A stretch of 64,000 bases of DNA. It comes from Croceicoccus mobilis (lineage in GTDB: Bacteria > Pseudomonadota > Alphaproteobacteria > Sphingomonadales > Sphingomonadaceae). The notes under the pieces were generated by a model. The model saw nothing but the letters and a program-made list of their open reading frames with translations. It made no database searches and was not told where the DNA came from. The position numbers and the translations under genes are program-made. Numbering within the stretch: position 1 is the first letter of the stretch; the number at the start of each line of letters is the position of its first letter. The stretch spans positions 248,001 to 312,000 of the forward strand of contig NZ_LYWZ01000025.1 of the NCBI RefSeq assembly GCF_001661965.1. The letters run 5' to 3'. Positions 41,694 to 51,104 of this stretch are shown here, in pieces.

Positions 41694-43070
41694 TCAGCGG
41701 ATCGTCTCGGTCTCTTCGATCATATTCACGAACTTTTCGCGCCACCAGTGCACGTCTTCCTTCTCGACCCCTTCGCGCAGCGTCTGGAACCGGGCCTTAC
41801 GCTCTGCCAGCGGCATTTTCAGCGCAGTCTGGATGGCCTCGGCGACTTCCTCGGGAGCGTAGGGATTGACCAGCAGGGCGTCCTGCATCTGCGCGGCGGC
41901 GCCGGCAAAGCGCGAGAGGACGAGGACGCCGGGATCTTCCGGGTCCTGCGCGGCGATATATTCCTTGGCCACAAGGTTCATGCCGTCGCGCAGCGGGGTG
42001 ACGAGGCCGACGCGGGCGGCGCGGTAGAGGGCGGTCAGTTCCTCGCGCCGGTAGCCGCGGTTGACATAGCGGATCGGGGTCCAGTCGACCTCGGCGAACA
42101 TGCCGTTGATGCGGCCGGCCAGTTCGTTCAATTCCTCGCGAACGTGGCGATATTGCTCGACCTCTCCGCGCGATGGCGGCGCGACCTGGACAAGGACGAC
42201 GGAACGGTGGAGGTCGGGATAGGCGTTGAGCAGGTGCTCGAAACTGACGAGGCGTTCCTGCAGGCCTTTGGAATAGTCGAGCCTGTCGACGCCCACGATC
42301 ATGGTCAGCTGGCGCAGCGAAACGCGCATGCGTTCGGCCAGCTGGTGAGCAAGGTCGGTTTCGCTGCTGTCGATGAAGTTCTTGAAGTCGATGCCGATCG
42401 GGCAGACCACGGCGCGAAGGCGCTGACCGTCGACGGTGATGTAATCGCCATCAATCGTGCCGCCCAGCTCGTTTTCGCAATAATGGCGGAAGCTTTCGAG
42501 CCACTCGCCGGTCTGGAAGCCCACGACGTCATAGCCGAACATGGAGCGGACCAGCCGTTCATGATGCGGAAGCGAGACGAGCAGCCGGGTGGGCGGCCAC
42601 GGGGTGTGGAGGAAGAAGCCGATCTTGTTCTTGATGCCATGTTCGCGCAGCAGCGATGCCATCGGGATCAAGTGGTAATCGTTGATCCAGATCGTGTCCT
42701 CAGGCTCGATCATGACGTGCAGCGGCTCGGCGAAACGCTTGTTCACGCGTTCATAACCGGAACCGAAACTGCGGTTATATTTGGCAATGTCGATGCGGTA
42801 GTGGAACAGCGGCCAGAGTGTGCGATTGGCAAAGCCGTTGTAATATTCTTCGACATCCTGCGGTTCGAGATCGACAACGGCAGAGCGCACGCCATCGCTT
42901 TCCTCGAAGCTGACGGAACCGTTGAATTCCTCGACTTCGCGCCCGGACCAGCCGAACCAGAGGCCTCCGGATTCGCGCAGCGCCGCCTGCAGCGCCACGG
43001 CAAGCCCGCCCTGCGAGCCATCCGGGCTGGGCATGGATACGCGATTGGAAACGACAATCAGGCGGCTCAT
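41694..43070 (-). CDS. otsA: Trehalose-6-phosphate synthase
   Basis: 458 residues of the GT20 family: [27 protein letters not shown] at the N-terminus, [49 protein letters not shown] and the late [26 protein letters not shown]. It joins UDP-glucose and glucose-6-phosphate to trehalose-6-phosphate in the cytoplasm. It follows otsB with a 45-nt gap on the same strand, giving the full trehalose pathway for osmotic or stress protection. Confidence 0.97.
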
Positions 43071-43115: not shown

Positions 43116-43856
43116 TTAGTCCATGCGTTCCCTTAACGAGCGAGATAGCCAATCGTTCACGGCGGCGACACCGGCAAGGCGAAAAGTCGCGAGCGTTGGT
43201 CGCATTTCGCCAACCAAAACACCTGCGCCGCCATGCGCATCGACCGCGCGGAAACCGTCTTCATCGGTGACGTCATCCCCCAGGAAAACGGGTCGGTGGC
43301 CGGCAAAGGGGCCGTGGCCCAGCATTTCCGTGATGGCAGAGCCCTTATCGACGCCGGAAATGCGAAGCTCGACCATATCGTGTCCGCGCTGGACGTGAAG
43401 GCCATGATCATCGGCCATCTCCTGCGCCAGATCATGCGCAGCATCCCGCTCGCCCGGCGCGCGACGGTAATGCAGCGCGGCGCCCAGTGGCTTGTCCTCA
43501 AACAGCAGACCCTCGGCACGGGTGGCAAATTCGGTAAACCGCTCGCGCGCGCGATCGAGGCCAGCTGGGCGAGGGCGGTGCTGGCGTTCCCCGCCGGCAA
43601 GGCGCCATTCCGATCCATGGCTTCCGGCGGCAGCCAGTCCCGCCATGCCGAATTCATCCAGCACCTCGAGTGCCCTGCCGCTTACCAGCGCCAGACGGCC
43701 ATTCAGTCGGTCGGTCAATTCATGAAGCGTTGCGATGAGATCGTCTGGTACGGTGATCGCATCCGGGCGATCCGCCAGTTCGACCAGCGTGCCGTCGAAA
43801 TCGAGAAACAACGTGTCCGTAGCGAAATCGAGCAGCGGGGGTTCTGGCAATTGCAT
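43116..43856 (-). CDS. otsB: Trehalose-6-phosphate phosphatase
   Basis: 246 residues from ATG 43856, with AAGGAG five bases upstream; a longer start would add 19 residues without ribosome site. The HAD motif I is D19-F-D21-G-T (LFLDFDGTLVE), with motif II region LALVSGR, K in SGVDKGSAI and motif III FLGDDVTDEDGF. It dephosphorylates trehalose-6-phosphate made by OtsA, the gene immediately downstream. Confidence 0.95.
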   Translation of the reverse strand: MQLPEPPLLDFATDTLFLDFDGTLVELADRPDAITVPDDLIATLHELTDRLNGRLALVSGRALEVLDEFGMAGLAAAGSHGSEWRLAGGERQHRPRPAGLDRARERFTEFATRAEGLLFEDKPLGAALHYRRAPGERDAAHDLAQEMADDHGLHVQRGHDMVELRISGVDKGSAITEMLGHGPFAGHRPVFLGDDVTDEDGFRAVDAHGGAGVLVGEMRPTLATFRLAGVAAVNDWLSRSLRERMD

Positions 43857-43934: not shown

Positions 43935-45179
43935 TCAGGGCTGCGAACCATCGCCTCTCAACCAGTTCAGCATGTCTGCATCCGCCTGCGCCTCGGCACG
44001 CAGCGTTCGATTAGCCAGAGTGGATAGCCAGCGTTGACCACGGCTCCATGCCCATGCGGGATAAGCCAGCCATCGTGTCGGATCTGACGCGCGCGTACCG
44101 GCGATGTCGGCCAGTTTTTGCGGTGTGGGGCTGAGCATGCGCGTAATTGCAGCCAATGGGCTGGAAGAGGAATTTCCGCTTGTCTCCAGCCGCCGGGCCA
44201 TGTCTCGGGCTTTGGCCTGCGACGGTGTGCGGAACATGGCGTCGATCGCGTGCGGCACATAAGGTGAAGCCGCATCTGTCTGGGGAAGAAAGTGGTCGGG
44301 AACGGCGATGTCGCCGCTTTCGCGCGCGATGGCAAGCAGCAGGGCGAGCGGACGGGCAAGCGATAAGCTGTCAGCCTCATGCAACAGGCGGTCCCGATCG
44401 AGGGACGGATCGGCCCATAGATGCCGGATGTCGGCAATCGTCAGCGGGCCGTTTTCAAAACAATTGTGCAGCGTTGCATGGACCGTGATATGCAGCAGGT
44501 TTGAAAGCGGGTCGGCCAGCCTTACGGCTGCGGATCCGACCGAGACTTCCTTCGCATTTTGCAACAGCAGTGCGGTCAATCCGCTGTCGCCTGCCCATTG
44601 GCGTGAAAAGACACGGTGATGGATCTCCACCGTGACCGCATGTTCGGGGCTGACAAGTTCGGGCATCTGGTGATACCGCTCGGGACCGTACTGGCCGGCC
44701 CATTCCGCTGTGGTAAACCCATGATCGCGAAGAAGATCGTAAGCCTCTTGTGCGCGCGAACGCGGAACGAGCACATCAATGTCGCGCAAGGGGCGCATGG
44801 CAGGCTGAGGATAGGCCGAAAAAGCGAGCGCCGAACCCTTGAGTGCGACATGACCGATATCAGCCGCGCTTAGCAACGCCGCCACCTGTCCCAGCACGAT
44901 CCGTTGACCCAGAGCGTAGAGAGTCTGCCTGCGGTAAAGATCTGTAATGCGGCGCCTGTTCGGTTCCGGAGCGGCAATGCCTTGTGCCACCATGTGGCGA
45001 TGCAGCAGACACGCTGTGCGGGTTCGCACCGCGATTGCCTCCAATGCATCCCAGCCAGCTTCATCAAGTGCGGTAAAGGTCTCATCCGGCTGCGCATTTC
45101 CTGCACAAATTCCCACCATCAGCCGCTCTGCGAAACCGTCACGTGGGGCGCTGTCATGGCAGCCTGCGGGGTTAGCCAT
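43935..45179 (-). CDS. Nucleotidyltransferase-family protein of the lasso cluster (N)
   Basis: 414 residues from ATG 45179, which overlaps the stop of the lactam synthetase gene (ATGGCTAA). The nucleotidyltransferase signature is visible: VALKGSALAFSAYPQPAMRPLRDIDVLVPRS, with D-x-D for metal binding, as in the large uncharacterised nucleotidyltransferase family (PF14907). The same gene type accompanies lasso-peptide synthetase and kinase genes in paeninodin-like clusters. Its substrate may be the phosphorylated or cyclised peptide (inference). It is the last gene of the operon; otsB lies 78 nt downstream. Confidence 0.82.
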   Translation of the reverse strand: MANPAGCHDSAPRDGFAERLMVGICAGNAQPDETFTALDEAGWDALEAIAVRTRTACLLHRHMVAQGIAAPEPNRRRITDLYRRQTLYALGQRIVLGQVAALLSAADIGHVALKGSALAFSAYPQPAMRPLRDIDVLVPRSRAQEAYDLLRDHGFTTAEWAGQYGPERYHQMPELVSPEHAVTVEIHHRVFSRQWAGDSGLTALLLQNAKEVSVGSAAVRLADPLSNLLHITVHATLHNCFENGPLTIADIRHLWADPSLDRDRLLHEADSLSLARPLALLLAIARESGDIAVPDHFLPQTDAASPYVPHAIDAMFRTPSQAKARDMARRLETSGNSSSSPLAAITRMLSPTPQKLADIAGTRASDPTRWLAYPAWAWSRGQRWLSTLANRTLRAEAQADADMLNWLRGDGSQP

Positions 45180-47130
45180 TGCGGCCACCGACATGCCTGA
45201 AAAACCGCGCAGCAATCAGCCCGCGCCCGACGGCTGAGTATATTCTCGGCCCCTCGCGTCCGCCGATGCTGTCCCTGCCGTCCCATTCCTCAAGCCATTT
45301 GCGAAGACGCGTAAGGTCTAGCATCGCGGAAAGATCCTCATCGTTTTCCAGCCGATCGATCTCTGCCAGCATTGCGGCTCGCTCGCCTGAAAAACGTATT
45401 GGCCAGTCCGAGTTTTGGATCCCGATCCGCCGGGCGGTGCGAACCTCTTCGGGGATCCGTCCGTGCAGCAATCGCCGCGCCAACCAGCGGGTCGTGCCAT
45501 TTCGCAGGAATTGATCGTCGGGAATTCCTGCGCACAGTTCGTATAACGGTCGAAAGCTTGTCGGATCGCGCATCGGAATGCCGTGCAGGAGCTCCATCGC
45601 CTGAATCGCATCGCCTCCCTCCGCCTCACTCATGGCTATAACCGCCTTTCGCCATTGGCGAGAGGATCGCGTTTCGAGAAAGAGCGGGTCATGGCCATCG
45701 CGGGCAGCTCGTTCGGCGACGCCCGATTTTGAAGCGCCGTCCCGATCAAGCGCGCACCAGCTGTCAAACGGATCCATCGCCGTACCGCGGCGATTGGCCC
45801 ATGCCTGGCGCCATCCCAGCGGTAGCTGGGGCATCAGCGCATGGCTTATGAACCGCCGCCATATGGGGCGATCACCGCCGAGTGCGGCCAGTTCGGCGAT
45901 GGCTTTTACTAACCGCCCCTCGCGCAGCCAGGTCGGCGGGCCGGTCCGTCCGTCATAGCTGAAGGAGCCATTCCCCGATGCGCCGGTCAGCATCACGTCA
46001 TGGCCCGATGCGGCTGCTCGCCTCAGCGTCTCGTGCCCCCAATGCATGTTGCTGCCGCCCATTGGGGCAGCCCCTGCCAGCAGAAAGAAATTGTCCTCCC
46101 TGTGCTGCAGGTCAAGCGCGCCGGTATCGACAAGCTCCAGATCAACGCGCCCGTGCATGGATGCAAAGGCCCTGGCGCCGTCGCGTTCGTCCCCTGTCGC
46201 GGCCGGCCAGTCGAGAGGTTCGTAACCCTTCTGCGGAACCCAGCAATAGGCTTTGAGCCGAGCCTCTTGCGCAATCGCGTCGAGCGCGAAGCTGCCGACA
46301 GCTTGCGAATCCAGCCCGCCCGATAGCTGAAGCGCGGGCGACCGAAATGGTGAGAGCATAGCCTCAGTGCCGCGTCGAAACGCCTCTTGCACTGCATCGA
46401 CATAATCCTCGTCACGGGGAAAGCGGACTTCCGGCAGGCGGTCGATGGACCAGTAATTTTCACGGTGGGTGCGGTCGGGCGTAATGTCCGCCAGTTCACC
46501 CGGCGCAATCCGCTCGATCCCGCGAAACCAGCTACGCCGCGCATCGCGGAAATTGAGGAACAGGGCGTCTTCGAGCTTCGTACGGTCGATTTCTTCGGCG
46601 GCGCCAGCGGCAAAGGCGACGCGCGGGGTGGAGGCGACAACCAGCAGACTGCCCTGTCGCCAGAGGTGCAGGGGAGGGGCCTGAATCGGCGAGCGGGCGA
46701 TGCGCACGCGCCTTTCCTCGGGGTAGTAGGCAATCGCGGCGTATTGTCCGTTGATCAGTCGATCGCACGCGTCGCCATGCTGGGCGAGAGCGGTGCCATA
46801 GATTGCGGCCTCATCGCTTTCCCGTGCGGCTTGCGTGATAGCCGTGGGCAATCGGTCAGTCTCGAACAAATCCCCGGCCAGAAGGATGATCGCACCATCA
46901 GGGCCCCGCGCTGCCTGCCATGGCCGCGATCGCGCCCCCAATCCCGTGGCTGGCGCGGCGCTAATTCGAGAGCGAGAGAACAGGAGCCCGCCCGGGGCTT
47001 TCATCGTGCTGACCGGCCCCCCCAGTCCGATGCCGAGGCTGTTGGCGACGCGCTCCTTAAGCCCATCTTGGTGGGCGCCGGGATCTCCTCCGGCCAGATC
47101 GATGACGGCGGCAATAAGCAGGGCACCCAT
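45172..47130 (-). CDS. Lasso peptide macrolactam synthetase (asparagine synthase-like, C)
   Basis: 652 residues. The N-terminal part is glutaminase-like without the nucleophile Cys2 of true asparagine synthetases (starts MGALLIAAVID), as in lasso C proteins. The ATP-pyrophosphatase loop is S270-G-G-L-D-S275 (LQLSGGLDSQAVGS), followed by the MLTGASGNGSFSYDG strand. C adenylates the Asp/Glu side chain of the core peptide and closes the macrolactam with the N-terminus. It sits directly after B2 (7-nt gap) and overlaps N. Confidence 0.92.
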   Translation of the reverse strand: MGALLIAAVIDLAGGDPGAHQDGLKERVANSLGIGLGGPVSTMKAPGGLLFSRSRISAAPATGLGARSRPWQAARGPDGAIILLAGDLFETDRLPTAITQAARESDEAAIYGTALAQHGDACDRLINGQYAAIAYYPEERRVRIARSPIQAPPLHLWRQGSLLVVASTPRVAFAAGAAEEIDRTKLEDALFLNFRDARRSWFRGIERIAPGELADITPDRTHRENYWSIDRLPEVRFPRDEDYVDAVQEAFRRGTEAMLSPFRSPALQLSGGLDSQAVGSFALDAIAQEARLKAYCWVPQKGYEPLDWPAATGDERDGARAFASMHGRVDLELVDTGALDLQHREDNFFLLAGAAPMGGSNMHWGHETLRRAAASGHDVMLTGASGNGSFSYDGRTGPPTWLREGRLVKAIAELAALGGDRPIWRRFISHALMPQLPLGWRQAWANRRGTAMDPFDSWCALDRDGASKSGVAERAARDGHDPLFLETRSSRQWRKAVIAMSEAEGGDAIQAMELLHGIPMRDPTSFRPLYELCAGIPDDQFLRNGTTRWLARRLLHGRIPEEVRTARRIGIQNSDWPIRFSGERAAMLAEIDRLENDEDLSAMLDLTRLRKWLEEWDGRDSIGGREGPRIYSAVGRGLIAARFFRHVGGRNG

Positions 47131-47137
47131 CGTCGTT

Positions 47138-47650
47138 TCAGTCCGTTGGATCAGCAGGGCGCGCCGGGCGAGACGTGAAGATGAGCATCGCGCGATAATC
47201 GTCGCGATCGCAATGGCCTATTACGATTTCCTCGCCATGCTCGACCCACGCATGCCATTCATCGCGGTTACCTTTCTCATGCGAACGCGCCACGATAAGG
47301 CGCGAGGCTATGGCTCGGCGGCGCAGCATCCATTGCAGCGCGATGGCGCGCGGAAGGCATTTCGTTTCCACCGGCAGTTTTTCCGCCGCCCGCTCGACAT
47401 GTCGGCCAAGACGGGCGGCATCACGCCATGCGGCGGTTTGCTGGTCGGTGGGAGAGGCAGCAGAAGAAATCGTGGCCCCCTCGATTTCTCCGAGTGTCCC
47501 ACGCCAGTGCTTCATCTGAACCCGGTTCACCAGGACACGTGCGAGCGGCAGCAGGGCCATGGCCTCAATCGTCAGCAGGCGGGGCGAAGCGATGCGCATC
47601 CTGAATGGCGTGTCATGCGTGTCGGATCGGATCAATGATTTTCGGATCAC
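47138..47650 (-). CDS. Lasso peptide leader peptidase (B2, transglutaminase-like)
   Basis: 170 residues from GTG 47650 (GAGG upstream); ATG 47599 is an alternative. The cysteine-protease triad of the Transglut_core3/McjB C-terminal family is present: C98 in KCLPRAIALQWMLRRR and H133 in WHAWVEHGEEIVIG. It removes the leader from the precursor so that C can cyclise the core. It is separated from B1 by 15 nt and from C by 7 nt, in the usual A-B1-B2-C order. Confidence 0.9.
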   Translation of the reverse strand: MIRKSLIRSDTHDTPFRMRIASPRLLTIEAMALLPLARVLVNRVQMKHWRGTLGEIEGATISSAASPTDQQTAAWRDAARLGRHVERAAEKLPVETKCLPRAIALQWMLRRRAIASRLIVARSHEKGNRDEWHAWVEHGEEIVIGHCDRDDYRAMLIFTSRPARPADPTD

Positions 47651-47665
47651 GAACCTCGTTCGCTC

Positions 47666-47950
47666 TTATTCGAGGCGGCCAAAGCCTGCCTTGGCCAGGC
47701 TCTCGGCAAAGCCTGCAACACTCTTGCGGGCATGCTCGGGATCGACTTCATATTCGTCACATAATTGCTCGGCGATCCGGTCGAGATCGGCTTCGTCGTC
47801 GAGAAGGGTCCAGATGCGCAGCCCGACATCCTTCAGCGCGAAAAACTTTCCCGTATCGACGTCGATCAGGACAAGTTCGTCATCGATGGCGCTGGATTCA
47901 TAACGTGCGGGGATTTTGATCAGGGTGCTTGGCATATCAAGGCGCACCAT
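47666..47950 (-). CDS. PqqD-like RiPP recognition element protein (lasso B1)
   Basis: 94 residues from ATG 47950; GTG 47959 and ATG 47935 are in-frame alternatives and none has an outstanding ribosome site. The sequence is a PqqD/RRE domain: LVLIDVDTGKFFALKDVGLRIWTLL, then the helical EQLCDEYEVDPEHARKSVAGF. RREs bind the leader of the precursor peptide and deliver it to the B2 protease. It lies 150 nt after the precursor gene behind a large stem-loop. Confidence 0.88.
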   Translation of the reverse strand: MVRLDMPSTLIKIPARYESSAIDDELVLIDVDTGKFFALKDVGLRIWTLLDDEADLDRIAEQLCDEYEVDPEHARKSVAGFAESLAKAGFGRLE

Positions 47951-48008
47951 GCCCTGCACGGTGATGCAGCGCCATAGTGGAAAATGCGGGTCACGCTCTT
48001 ATGTGGAG

Positions 48009-48064
48009 AACGCCCCAAACGCAGGCGAGCATGCCATCGGCAAGCAGCCACCTGCGGGGGCGTT
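48009..48064 (-). promoter_or_regulatory. Stem-loop between precursor and processing genes
   Basis: AACGCCCC (48009-48016) pairs with GGGGCGTT (48057-48064), and CGCAGG (48020-48025) with CCTGCG (48051-48056): a 14-bp stem with a 3-nt bulge and a 25-nt loop. A second small hairpin (GCCAAT-CGC-ATTGGC on the minus strand) precedes it. No T-tract follows, so it is more likely a partial terminator or RNA-stability element that keeps precursor mRNA above enzyme mRNA. Confidence 0.65.
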
Positions 48065-48100
48065 TCGGTCAATTAGCCAATGCGATTGGCGTAATGAAAA

Positions 48101-48241
48101 TCAGGACTTGCGCGAGAGGTTGTTCGACACGGAACCGTCGTCGAAATAATTGTTGCCCGATGCGACCGAAGAAAGATCGACGTCAAGCTGTTCGAGCTTC
48201 GGCTCGGTCCAGGCGTTCTTGTGCGCGGCGCGGGTGGTCAT
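48101..48241 (-). CDS. Lasso precursor peptide (A)
   Basis: 46 codons from ATG 48241 (AGGGA eight bases upstream) to TGA 48101. Leader: MTTRAAHKNA then W11-T-E-P14-K-L16-E-Q-L19-D-V, matching the YxxPxLxxL-type motif recognised by B1, with Trp for Tyr. Probable core A27-S46: ASGNNYFDDG followed by SVSNNLSRKS, with S25 in place of the usual Thr at -2, Ala1 as ring N-terminus and Asp8 or Asp9 as ring acceptor. The last residue is Ser, a candidate for phosphorylation by the neighbouring HPr-kinase-like enzyme. Alternative core starts at S28 or G29 are less consistent. It is located between K and B1. Confidence 0.85.
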   Translation of the reverse strand: MTTRAAHKNAWTEPKLEQLDVDLSSVASGNNYFDDGSVSNNLSRKS

Positions 48242-48279
48242 GCCGGAAGTCCCTTTGAGAATTGAATTTTCAATAATTG

Positions 48280-48308
48280 GTCATAGCTCCAGACCGTGAA
48301 ATTCGCAA
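48280..48308 (-). promoter_or_regulatory. Predicted promoter of the precursor gene
   Basis: On the minus strand TTGCGA (48308-48303), a 17-nt spacer and TATGAC (48285-48280) form a sigma70-like promoter that ends about 40 nt before the precursor ATG, in the gap after the kinase stop. This would give the precursor its own transcription start. A TTGAA-TT-TTCAA inverted repeat lies at 48263-48274. Confidence 0.45.
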
Positions 48309-48323
48309 CTGCACAATTGGTTC

Positions 48324-49226
48324 CTAAAGCCTGTTCAGCAGATTTGCGATAAGCGCGACATCATTCGCGAAATTGCAGCGCGAGCGTACTCGAAAGAGGT
48401 TCCAGCATCGCAGGCCGCGCGCAAGGCGCAGTAGAATGGCCCTGTGCGCCTGCTGATTTGCAAGGCCGATGGCAATCTCAATCCGGTACAAGGCATTGGT
48501 AAGCGCAGGGAATTTCTGGCTGCCGACCAGGCTTTCGAGCTTGGGCGGGCCATTTTCGGCCGAATGAATGAACACCAGCTCGCAAAGGGGAAGGGGCAGC
48601 CCGTCGCCTGACAGAGGGCCGGTTTTGCTTATATTGCCCAGATCTGCAAAAAATTTGTCCGCGCCGGGTTCGATCGGCTCCAATCGCGCAGCACCCGTTA
48701 ATTCAAAAGCATCCGCGCAAAGTTTGATTCGGTCCCTGTCAGGCCACGCGTAGATGCCGTCATCACGCATTTCGATGAGCAGCACATCGTCCGATCTATG
48801 CGAGAAGCCATGTTGCGCCAATGCTGCGGCAAGAGTTGACTTGCCCTCTCCCGATTGTCCGGTGAATGCGATGACCCGGCCATCGCTTACGACGCTGCTG
48901 GCATGCAGCGGGATCAGCCCGTTAAGCCAGGCGACCGCGCCATAGACAGTGCCATTATAAAAAAGGTCGGTTTCCTCCGCACTACCCTCGCGCCCTTGCG
49001 AAATGGCAATGCCTTGTCCTTGACGATAATAGAAACGTGTTCCTGCCGGCGTGGTGAACAGGAAGCTGTCAGCACGAAGCTGGATGACCTGATTATCGAC
49101 GAGCGGAGTGTCGAGCCTGTCGGGAACGGGCTCGTTCAGGATCCGCATCTCTTCACGGATGATGGCGGGAAAGCGCGAGGGGGCCGACGCGTCCGGCAAA
49201 GCCTGCTCAATCGGCAAAGGCGGCAT
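48324..49226 (-). CDS. HPr kinase-like lasso peptide kinase (K)
   Basis: 300 residues. The P-loop of the HPr kinase/phosphorylase family is G123-Q-S-G-E-G-K-S130 (IAFTGQSGEGKSTLAAAL), preceded by LNGLIPLHASSVVSDGR and followed by HRSDDVLLIEMRDDGIYAWP with the catalytic-type Asp pair. The two-domain PTS role of HPrK is unlikely here; by context it resembles the PadeK/ThcoK kinases that phosphorylate the C-terminal Ser of a lasso precursor, and this precursor ends in Ser. ATG 49226 lies 20 nt inside the 3' end of recJ. The phosphorylation target is inference. Confidence 0.85.
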   Translation of the reverse strand: MPPLPIEQALPDASAPSRFPAIIREEMRILNEPVPDRLDTPLVDNQVIQLRADSFLFTTPAGTRFYYRQGQGIAISQGREGSAEETDLFYNGTVYGAVAWLNGLIPLHASSVVSDGRVIAFTGQSGEGKSTLAAALAQHGFSHRSDDVLLIEMRDDGIYAWPDRDRIKLCADAFELTGAARLEPIEPGADKFFADLGNISKTGPLSGDGLPLPLCELVFIHSAENGPPKLESLVGSQKFPALTNALYRIEIAIGLANQQAHRAILLRLARGLRCWNLFRVRSRCNFANDVALIANLLNRL

Positions 49227-51015
49227 CTTCCAGAATTAGCTCCGCAGCTGGCGTGTTACCCCAATCATCGATCTTGGCCCGCCCGGCCAGCCACAGCTTG
49301 CGACCGCGCGATCCATGAAGCAACGCCTGCCCCATCTCGGTCTCCTCTGCGCGAAAGGCTATTGCCTTGAAACGGCCGCCATCCTGCCCTGCGGCGATTA
49401 GGCGGACATGCCCCTGTCCGACGACATCTGCCTTGATCAGCGTCACCGGCCCGATCGCGACACGAGGGGCGGGCCAGCCGACGCCATAGGGGCCGGCGGC
49501 CTCCATCTGCTCCACCAGCGCAGGGTTCAGTCCGCGTGGTGACAGCGAGAGATCGAGCGTCAGGGCGCGCGATGCCATCGCCCGTTCCACATCTCGGCCC
49601 AGGCGTTCATCGAGAAAATCGCGGAACGCGTCGAGCCTGGCTTCCTCTATGGTCAGGCCGGCCGCCATGGCGTGACCGCCGCCCTTGACCAGCAGGTCTG
49701 CTTCGCGCGCGGCGATGACGGCTGCGCCCAGATCGACGCCCGCCAGCGACCGGCCCGACCCCTTGCCAAGCATCACGCCGTCTTCCGCTTCGTCATCGAT
49801 GGCGATCACGAAGACCGGCTTGCCCACCTTTTCCTTGAGGCGCCCGGCCACGATGCCGATGACACCCGGATGCCAGCCGCGCCCGGCGACGACGACGACC
49901 TGCCGGTTATGCTGTGCGGAAAGCTGCGCTTCGGCAGCTTCCTGAACCGCGGCTTCGATCGCGCGGCGTTCTTCGTTCAAGACGTCGAGCCGGGCAGCGA
50001 TCTCGCGGGCTTCGTCCATGTCATCGCTGGTCAGCAACCGCACGCCGAGGCTGGAATCGCCGATCCGGCCTGCCGCGTTGATGCGCGGCCCAAGGGCAAA
50101 GCCGAGATCACTTGCCTGCGGTGCGCGTTTGACCCGTCCGGCATCGATCAGCGCGGCAATGCCCGCGTTCTGGCGGCGTGCCATGATCTTCAAGCCCTGA
50201 GCCACGAAAGCGCGGTTCAACCCGTGAAGCGCGGCGACATCGGCGACCGTACCCAGCGCGACCAGATCGAGCAGGGCCATCAGGTCGGGTTCTTGGCGTT
50301 CTTGAAAATAGCCCTTCTGCCGCAAGACCCGCACCAGCGCGATGCCGAGCAGGAACGCCACGCCGACCGCGGCCAGATGTCCGTGCGAAGCCGCATCGTC
50401 GGTGGAATCGAGGCGGTTCGGATTTACCAGCGCCGCTGCGCGCGGGAGCGTGCTGGCACATTTGTGGTGGTCGACGACGATCACATCCACGCCCACCTCC
50501 GCCGCGGCGTCCAGCGCCTCATGCGCCATGGCGCCGCAATCGACGGTGACGATCAGGCTGGAGCCGTCCCTTGCCAGCTGCACCAGGGATTCTCCGGTCG
50601 GACCGTAACCCTCTAGCAGGCGGTCTGGGATGTAATGGCCGGGATCGACGCCCAGTTGCCGTAAGAGCCGGATCAGCAGCGCCGCACTCGTGGCTCCATC
50701 GACGTCGTAATCGCCATAGATGGTGATCGCCTCCCCGCTCAGCACGGCCTGTGCGATACGCTGCGCAGCCTCGTCCATGTCGTGAAAGATCGAGGGGTCG
50801 GGGAGGAAGTCGCGCAAGGTGGGGCGCATCTGGCGATCCACGTCATGCTCCTCCACCCCGCGTGACAGCAGCAGCTGGCGCAGCAGCCCCAGCCCGTCAC
50901 CATCATCGCCAAGCGCCATGTTGCCGCCGCGCCAACGCCACGCCCGCCCGCTCAGCGATGCGGATACGTTGCAGACGAAGCCATGTAGATTGCGTGTTTC
51001 GAGACCGGGACCCAT
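49207..51015 (-). CDS. recJ: Single-stranded-DNA-specific exonuclease RecJ
   Basis: 602 residues from about ATG 51015 (in-frame longer start at 51066 is possible). DHH-family motifs in order: ITIYGDYDVDGATSAALL, IVTVDCGA, DVIVVDHHKC, LDLVALGTVADVAAL, GPRINAAGRIGDSSLG, GRGWHPGVIGIVAGRLKEK and the DHHA1 signature LVKGGGHAMAAGLT. It degrades 5' single-stranded DNA in recombination and repair. Its stop overlaps the start of the lasso kinase gene by 20 nt, so the two may be co-transcribed. Confidence 0.95.
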   Translation of the reverse strand: MGPGLETRNLHGFVCNVSASLSGRAWRWRGGNMALGDDGDGLGLLRQLLLSRGVEEHDVDRQMRPTLRDFLPDPSIFHDMDEAAQRIAQAVLSGEAITIYGDYDVDGATSAALLIRLLRQLGVDPGHYIPDRLLEGYGPTGESLVQLARDGSSLIVTVDCGAMAHEALDAAAEVGVDVIVVDHHKCASTLPRAAALVNPNRLDSTDDAASHGHLAAVGVAFLLGIALVRVLRQKGYFQERQEPDLMALLDLVALGTVADVAALHGLNRAFVAQGLKIMARRQNAGIAALIDAGRVKRAPQASDLGFALGPRINAAGRIGDSSLGVRLLTSDDMDEAREIAARLDVLNEERRAIEAAVQEAAEAQLSAQHNRQVVVVAGRGWHPGVIGIVAGRLKEKVGKPVFVIAIDDEAEDGVMLGKGSGRSLAGVDLGAAVIAAREADLLVKGGGHAMAAGLTIEEARLDAFRDFLDERLGRDVERAMASRALTLDLSLSPRGLNPALVEQMEAAGPYGVGWPAPRVAIGPVTLIKADVVGQGHVRLIAAGQDGGRFKAIAFRAEETEMGQALLHGSRGRKLWLAGRAKIDDWGNTPAAELILEDAAFAD

Positions 51016-51104
51016 GCTGCGATGATAACACGGCTTTTCGCCAATGGGGCGGGCGGGCGTGGCCACGGATGGAATTATCCACCGCTATGGGGCAGGGTGG
51101 GGTG

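Follow-up and report, generated by a model that had tools for sequence, protein, structure and literature searches.

The window, a stretch of 64,000 nucleotides of the Croceicoccus mobilis genome, carries a six-gene cluster (K-A-B1-B2-C-N) that probably makes a phosphorylated and further decorated lasso peptide, exported by an ABC exporter (D) whose gene lies elsewhere in the genome, where it would have been kept from a lost sister cluster. Judged from its sequence, the locus is a phosphorylated-lasso cluster of the paeninodin/Bsf type, a class already known; the new part appears to be a cluster devoid of D together with a relic exporter at another site. The first-pass annotation had called the cluster a little-described version of its class, which is overstated: excerpts of reviews describe SyanK as the Sphingobium kinase of a phospho-lasso cluster, acting on the C-terminal serine, and the available text of PMC10368454 reports Val/Ile(-2) precursors with a kinase in Sphingomonadales. 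Our search of the open PMC literature returned no Croceicoccus lasso-peptide report, the match there concerning Erythrobacter, and no report on orphan or unlinked lasso transporters.

The cluster between recJ and otsB-otsA

The six genes are all open reading frames on the minus strand, flanked by recJ and by two genes which we take from their sequences, without a family search, to be otsB and otsA (Table 1). Precursor A adjoins a split B1/B2 pair and an asparagine-synthetase-like C, the cluster includes an HprK-like kinase with a His-Lys-Asp-Asp motif, and a protein with a nucleotidyltransferase (NTase) fold is encoded with this kinase. The first-pass annotation had seen here a lasso cluster with a tailoring kinase and a nucleotidyltransferase in a sphingomonad-like genome: gene families and order agree with it, the block recurs in Croceicoccus and the host belongs to this genus. 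The reported overlap of C and N was also recovered (8 nt), with a different start for N, probably ATG 45179 as in the overlapping genes of relative L082 instead of the TTG 45215 first proposed. Pfam/NCBIfam searches gave scores above the cut-offs for B2 (NF033537, lasso B2 protein, 55.5 bits versus a curated cut-off of 33), B1 (PF05402 PqqD, 64.2 versus 23.4), C (PF00733 Asn_synthase, 63.7 versus 21) and N (PF14907 NTP_transf_5, 143.6 versus 31.2). K matched HprK-related models, all under their cut-offs. Since A matched the paeninodin-family model NF033524 under its cut-off (18.3 versus 27 bits), we assign the locus to the kinase-type class and not to the PadeA family.

Table 1. Coordinates of the features discussed in the text (plain numbers refer to the window; other features are given by locus or contig)
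Feature	Location	Strand	Remarks
K, HprK-like precursor kinase	48324..49226	-	300 aa; H108, G123, K129, S130, D146-D147 at BsfK spacing
A, precursor	48101..48241	-	46 aa; leader 48161-48241; predicted core 48104-48160 = SGNNYFDDGSVSNNLSRKS
B1, PqqD-like recognition element	47666..47947	-	PF05402 PqqD match
B2, transglutaminase-like leader peptidase	47138..47650	-	C98, H133; NF033537 above cut-off
C, asparagine-synthetase-like macrolactam synthetase	45172..47130	-	SGGLDS at 270; PF00733
N, PF14907 nucleotidyltransferase-like protein	43935..45179	-	414 aa from ATG; invariant K114-G115, D133, D135, E185; NTase fold
recJ, conserved flank	49207..51066	-	
otsB (presumably trehalose-phosphatase), conserved flank	43116..43856	-	
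otsA (presumably trehalose-phosphate synthase), conserved flank	41694..43070	-	
Promoter-like conserved element before A	48302..48316	-	15 bp; exact in 4/4 Croceicoccus loci with A
Hairpin after A	48006..48066	-	region z-score -2.1
Solo D of the window genome	G000:C15:861417-863087		beside rpe
Decayed sister cluster of G009, rpe site	L220 9400-11300		K and N pieces left; middle including D deleted
Sister-type precursors without acidic core residue	L091 5055-5177; L093 5161-5379; L118 5816-5968; L120 3536-3697; L137 11019-11144; L138 3423-3551		
N homologues beside LptA-like gene	L139 6589-8360; L140 5506-7247; L141 6077-7709; L142 5961-7753		

The arrangement of recJ, block and otsB-otsA was found in 5 of 14 Croceicoccus genomes (G000, which includes the window on contig C18, G005, G006, G007 and G012); in the nine others, the 3 to 7.5 kb examined downstream of recJ contain no lasso genes and no otsBA. 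Four genomes keep the full set of six in this order, although C is split into two frames in G006; G012 has lost K, A, B1, B2 and the beginning of C. Both damaged copies come from metagenome assemblies, in which an assembly error is possible. Between species, dN/dS was estimated by the Nei-Gojobori method, given where computable and rough, as many dS values exceed 1 and some ORFs have over-long starts. It ranged from 0.11 to 0.29 for A (6 pairs), 0.12 to 0.21 for K (5/6), 0.11 to 0.20 for B1 (5/6), 0.10 to 0.37 for B2 (6), 0.18 to 0.30 for C (3 pairs, broken copies left out) and 0.16 to 0.29 for N (10). A chance run of ORFs is ruled out by these values, well below 1, and by the conservation of the block in five genomes. 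Nor do K and N regularly lie beside recJ without lasso genes, the situation that the first-pass annotation had named as contrary to its reading: N accompanies C at 5/5 recJ sites, with only remains of C in G012.

The DNA preceding A contains a 15-bp promoter-like element, TTGTGCANTTGCGAA, whose second half can act as a -35 box; a -10 box would then be TATGAC (48280-48285), which follows after 17 nt. TATAAG, TATAGC or TATGAC stands 16-17 nt after the putative -35 box in the relatives and the window. The stretch ATTGTGCANTTGCGAA is identical in the four genomes that have A, and the remaining intergenic DNA has drifted. Exact matches to TTGTGCANTTGCGAA number 2, 1, 1 and 1 in G000, G005, G006 and G007, and one mismatch yields 4 to 6 sites per genome versus 0 or 1 for a reversed control pattern; at up to three mismatches, the count in the window is no more than chance (6 versus 6.14 expected). 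The element was not called by a generic sigma-70 promoter scan. The second exact site of the G000 genome falls in the 3' end of a presumably phytase-like gene and is probably due to chance. A stable hairpin lies 3' of A in the window, L083 and L085 (region z-scores of -2.8 and -2.9 in the latter two) and is not clear in L082 (-0.9 and -0.1 in two stretches); a scan for T-tailed terminators after A in the window found none. The hairpin is perhaps an attenuator or the end of the mRNA.

Among known systems, SyanA/SyanK of Sphingobium yanoikuyae, compared by description only, likewise combines a sphingomonad lasso cluster, an HprK-like kinase and a Ser-terminated precursor; the excerpts describing it mention neither recJ nor a missing D. 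Paeninodin (pade) shares a lasso peptide with a kinase-modified C-terminal Ser. It differs in that the window precursor, which has Val(-2), matches its family model weakly, under the cut-off, and its available description mentions no N. The LPP RiPPs, as presented in the accessible part of PMC13381572, likewise combine a kinase, a discrete RRE, an NTP transferase and an exporter, but their protease is signal-peptidase-like and they lack a macrolactam cyclase, whereas the window has C and B2.

Precursor register and the predicted site of phosphorylation

In order to define the core, we gathered 14 loci of the window type (the window, L082, L083, L085, L086, L087, L089, L156, L157, L158, L159, L161, L164 and L172), L089 being taken in on K, A, B1 and B2 alone, with no C in the 6 kb examined; the precursor set excludes L084, from which A has been lost, and L088, with a C that falls outside the clade. 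Precursors were chosen by motif and place, without regard to Asp8 or Ser. One with the W-x-x-P-x-[L/V] motif lies beside K and B1 in 13 of the 14 loci, and none was found there in L087. The register was set by counting the leader W as -17, as proven by cleavage of the BsfA leader in the accessible text of PMC10368454. With this register, all 13 precursors have Ile/Val(-2), a C-terminal Ser, as the first-pass annotation had observed for the window, and Asp8. This residue is a candidate ring acceptor within core positions 7-9, and the core contains no other acidic residue in 12 of the precursors (the window also has D7). These 13 precursors are not independent, because four come from one genus. 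The window precursor carries Val(-2) in place of the classical Thr(-2), which had escaped the first-pass annotation; we did not count this as excluding the lasso class because Ile/Val(-2) is a variant reported in the available text of PMC10368454.

Core residue 1 is variable (Ser, Asn, Ser, Thr, Gly, Ala, Ser, Gln, Ala, Gln, Gln, Gly, Gln) and is Gly in only two of the 13 precursors. The register thus suggests natural lasso cores in which Ser, Thr, Asn, Gln or Ala replaces Gly1, and such cores would be useful for studying the substrates accepted by macrolactam synthetases. A ring of seven residues, running from residue 2 to Asp8, was rejected as first choice, since in the BsfA register the core begins with Ser28 of A. 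We infer that the window core is SGNNYFDDGSVSNNLSRKS, with a ring between Ser1 and Asp8, a phosphate on Ser19 and N acting on this phosphate. B1 would bind the leader via W(-17)xxPxL(-12), K would phosphorylate the C-terminal Ser of the precursor (core Ser19) with ATP, B2 together with B1 would cut after V(-2)-A(-1), and C would then join the Ser1 amine to the Asp8 side chain, closing the ring around an 11-residue tail. The neutral monoisotopic masses calculated for the window peptide are 2059.92 (linear core), 2041.91 (lasso), 2121.88 (lasso with one phosphate), 2201.84 (two phosphates), 2283.93 (phosphate and hexose) and 2450.93 (phosphate and AMP).

The closest described system for this register is bsf of Bradymonas sediminis (PMC10368454, available text), which shares K, N, split B1/B2, Ile/Val(-2), Y/W(-17)xxPxL and a predicted ring to Asp8. 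It differs by Gly1, a C-terminal Asp, phosphorylation on Ser3 and a D of its own, the window having Ser1, a C-terminal Ser and no D. BsfK, the characterised kinase of this Ile(-2) cluster, which also has an N, thus modifies a Ser inside the core, and the window core has five Ser; K might accordingly phosphorylate Ser1, Ser10, Ser12 or Ser16, with N working there. We hold this to be improbable: the C-terminal Ser is the only one invariant in the 13 precursors, BsfA, as described in the same text, ends in Asp, and the sphingomonad SyanK is reported, in the excerpt of a review, to act on the C-terminal Ser. The Ser-terminated core would favour phosphorylation of the tail despite the Ser3 of BsfK.

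At least six sister-type precursors (W..P[EL]..LG...DVA) lack any Asp or Glu beyond the leader, with a C gene present; either C would join something else or the product would not be a classic lasso ring. In L113, L114 and L116, from Croceicoccus that have a sister cluster elsewhere, the stretch examined contains an A-C pair and lacks K, B1, B2 and D; these pairs may borrow the enzymes of that cluster.

The putative tailoring enzymes K and N

The residues His108, Gly123, Lys129, Ser130 and Asp146-147 of K have the exact spacing of H148, G163, K169, S170 and D186-D187 in BsfK; Gly123 is not conserved across all aligned relatives. In N, Lys114-Gly115, Asp133, Asp135 and Glu185, which include the carboxylates of the NTase motif, are kept in 17/17 sequences. 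The AlphaFold model of N is confident (pLDDT 89.6) and its middle part has a nucleotidyltransferase fold, the closest structures being MenT1 (Z 14.7 over 178 residues) and ANT(2'')-Ia (Z 12.3), followed by other NTases; this search barely tested residues outside about 79-316. FKRP, an enzyme that transfers ribitol-phosphate, also appeared in the Foldseek list for the model (E 0.07-0.09). A PDB sequence search with N returned no match up to E 0.1 and a first scan of genome contigs with N no relatives, while plasmid searches with N and K gave distant matches (6 and 13 records).

The pseudomycoidin cluster (psm) of Bacillus pseudomycoides, although from Bacillus, resembles the window cluster in its K and N tailoring genes and C-terminal Ser, N and PsmN being likened by description only. 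The accessible text of PMC9266682 reports that PsmN, annotated as a nucleotidyltransferase, installs one or two hexoses on the phospho-Ser of pseudomycoidin, and considers that nucleotidylation followed by glycosylation by the host remains possible. The first-pass annotation had described the role of N as unresolved. This was too strong given the hexoses reported for PsmN, which may act either as a glycosyltransferase or via nucleotidylation. We favour, by analogy with PsmN, an N that adds a sugar on the phosphate once the ring is closed. The fold, the FKRP match and the invariant carboxylates would also suit a true nucleotidyltransferase, giving a nucleotide-diphospho-Ser product, or a phospho-sugar transferase; we regard this as a serious if less probable possibility, as a common fold shows no function and the available account of PsmN reports hexoses without mention of a nucleotide adduct.

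Distant relatives of N and of K-N without C occur elsewhere, away from the recJ site. N homologues with no C in the stretch examined directly adjoin an LptA-like gene (PF03968) in L139, L140, L141 and L142, the four loci scanned of five N-only loci (the fifth being L145), which suggests an envelope-linked role of the N family outside lasso clusters. Two genomes of another family of the same taxonomic order have K-N pairs (L143 4806-6811 and L144 4490-6492), around which the 12-14 kb examined contain neither C nor B1 nor B2.

An exporter gene beside rpe

D is absent from the recJ-locus cluster in 5/5 genomes, so the cluster is not complete, as the first-pass annotation had called it; neither this absence nor the solo D described below figured there. 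The C tree unites the recJ-locus Cs with those of nine loci from Novosphingobium, Erythrobacter and others in a single clade (support 100/99). D lies close to C in all nine, in the order C-D-N in eight and upstream on the other strand in L157; in the recJ-locus copies C runs directly into N. A profile of eight lasso Ds detected one clear D each in G000, G005, G006 and G007 (590-604 bits, the next matches reaching 231-241). On one side of this solo D lies rpe; on the other come a DUF2141 gene and then a gene for an M20-type amidohydrolase. The same neighbours flank a sister cluster, K-B1-B2-A-C-D-N, in six other Croceicoccus (L096, L107, L108, L109, L136 and L137), its A being recognised in all except L109. 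In the D tree the sister group of the solo Ds consists of the exporters of those six clusters alone (100/99); the solo Ds thereby group with Ds inside lasso clusters, not with other ABC exporters, the split from this outgroup being supported at only 76/90. The solo Ds are not truncated, their Walker A, signature and Walker B motifs are all intact, and their dN/dS values are 0.21-0.37.

The rpe site thus appears to have lost a whole sister cluster except D, and the disagreement between the C and D trees is in keeping with a D derived from that cluster. A single C of the recJ-locus family is present in every one of the five genomes with this locus (E <= 1e-15; in two pieces in G006 and truncated in G012), and a single D above 500 bits in four of them. 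Taken together, the recJ-locus and rpe-site patterns make a split pathway the simplest reading, in which the mature peptide would leave the cell through the solo D. The co-occurrence in four genomes does not represent four independent cases, because it probably stems from one ancestral event. The lack of a solo D in G012 is uninformative, rpe itself being missing from that assembly, and apparent K and N remnants around the solo D were rejected, as the hits came from ORFs that had been extended too far and read rpe and D in a different frame.

The peptide might instead stay inside the cell or leave by a general pump, the solo D being a relic recruited elsewhere. The missing D is compatible with this, as is the lack of any sequence element common to the regions upstream of A and of the solo D; the available text of PMC10368454 (Duan et al.) describes another cluster, mmv, also without D. 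To see how closely D follows lasso genes, we examined 298 genomes of the family. D scored above 500 bits in 37, of which 31 have a lasso-type C within 5 kb, although this scoring considered the first four candidates per genome and some Cs were possibly missed. The six others are G000, G005, G294 (near a contig end, with D adjoining B2 and N), G336 (D far from its Cs), G176 (D split) and G155. The last has an intact solo D (L222 6573-8258) and no C of the recJ-locus family, its only match scoring 59 bits, which argues for export by another route and suggests that a solo D can persist without an obvious lasso partner. The tie between the D family and lasso genes in 31/37 genomes and the purifying selection on the solo D point the other way. 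So does G009, which has no C of the recJ-locus family (its best match, at 88.6 bits, adjoins a D-like exporter scoring 374 bits) and has also lost D at the rpe site. On balance we find it rather unlikely that the peptide dispenses with the solo D, and retain export by the latter. The distant C-like protein (about 87-89 bits) adjoining a D-like exporter (374 bits) was found in both G009 (G009:C17:12220-16558) and G002 (G002:C20:12225-16560), and is perhaps part of a different, distant peptide cluster.

We infer from these genomic patterns that the solo D serves the recJ-locus peptide, and see an even chance that the pathway is chimaeric, joining the biosynthesis of one lasso family to the exporter of another, sole survivor of a deleted cluster. 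Cluster miners may label such pathways transporter-less although the pump merely sits elsewhere. These related marine bacteria let the addition made by N to the phosphate and the export pump of a phospho-lasso peptide be tested side by side. If the chimaeric pathway is real, lasso exporters would be interchangeable between peptide families, and export or tolerance, rather than synthesis, would be the part that selection retains.
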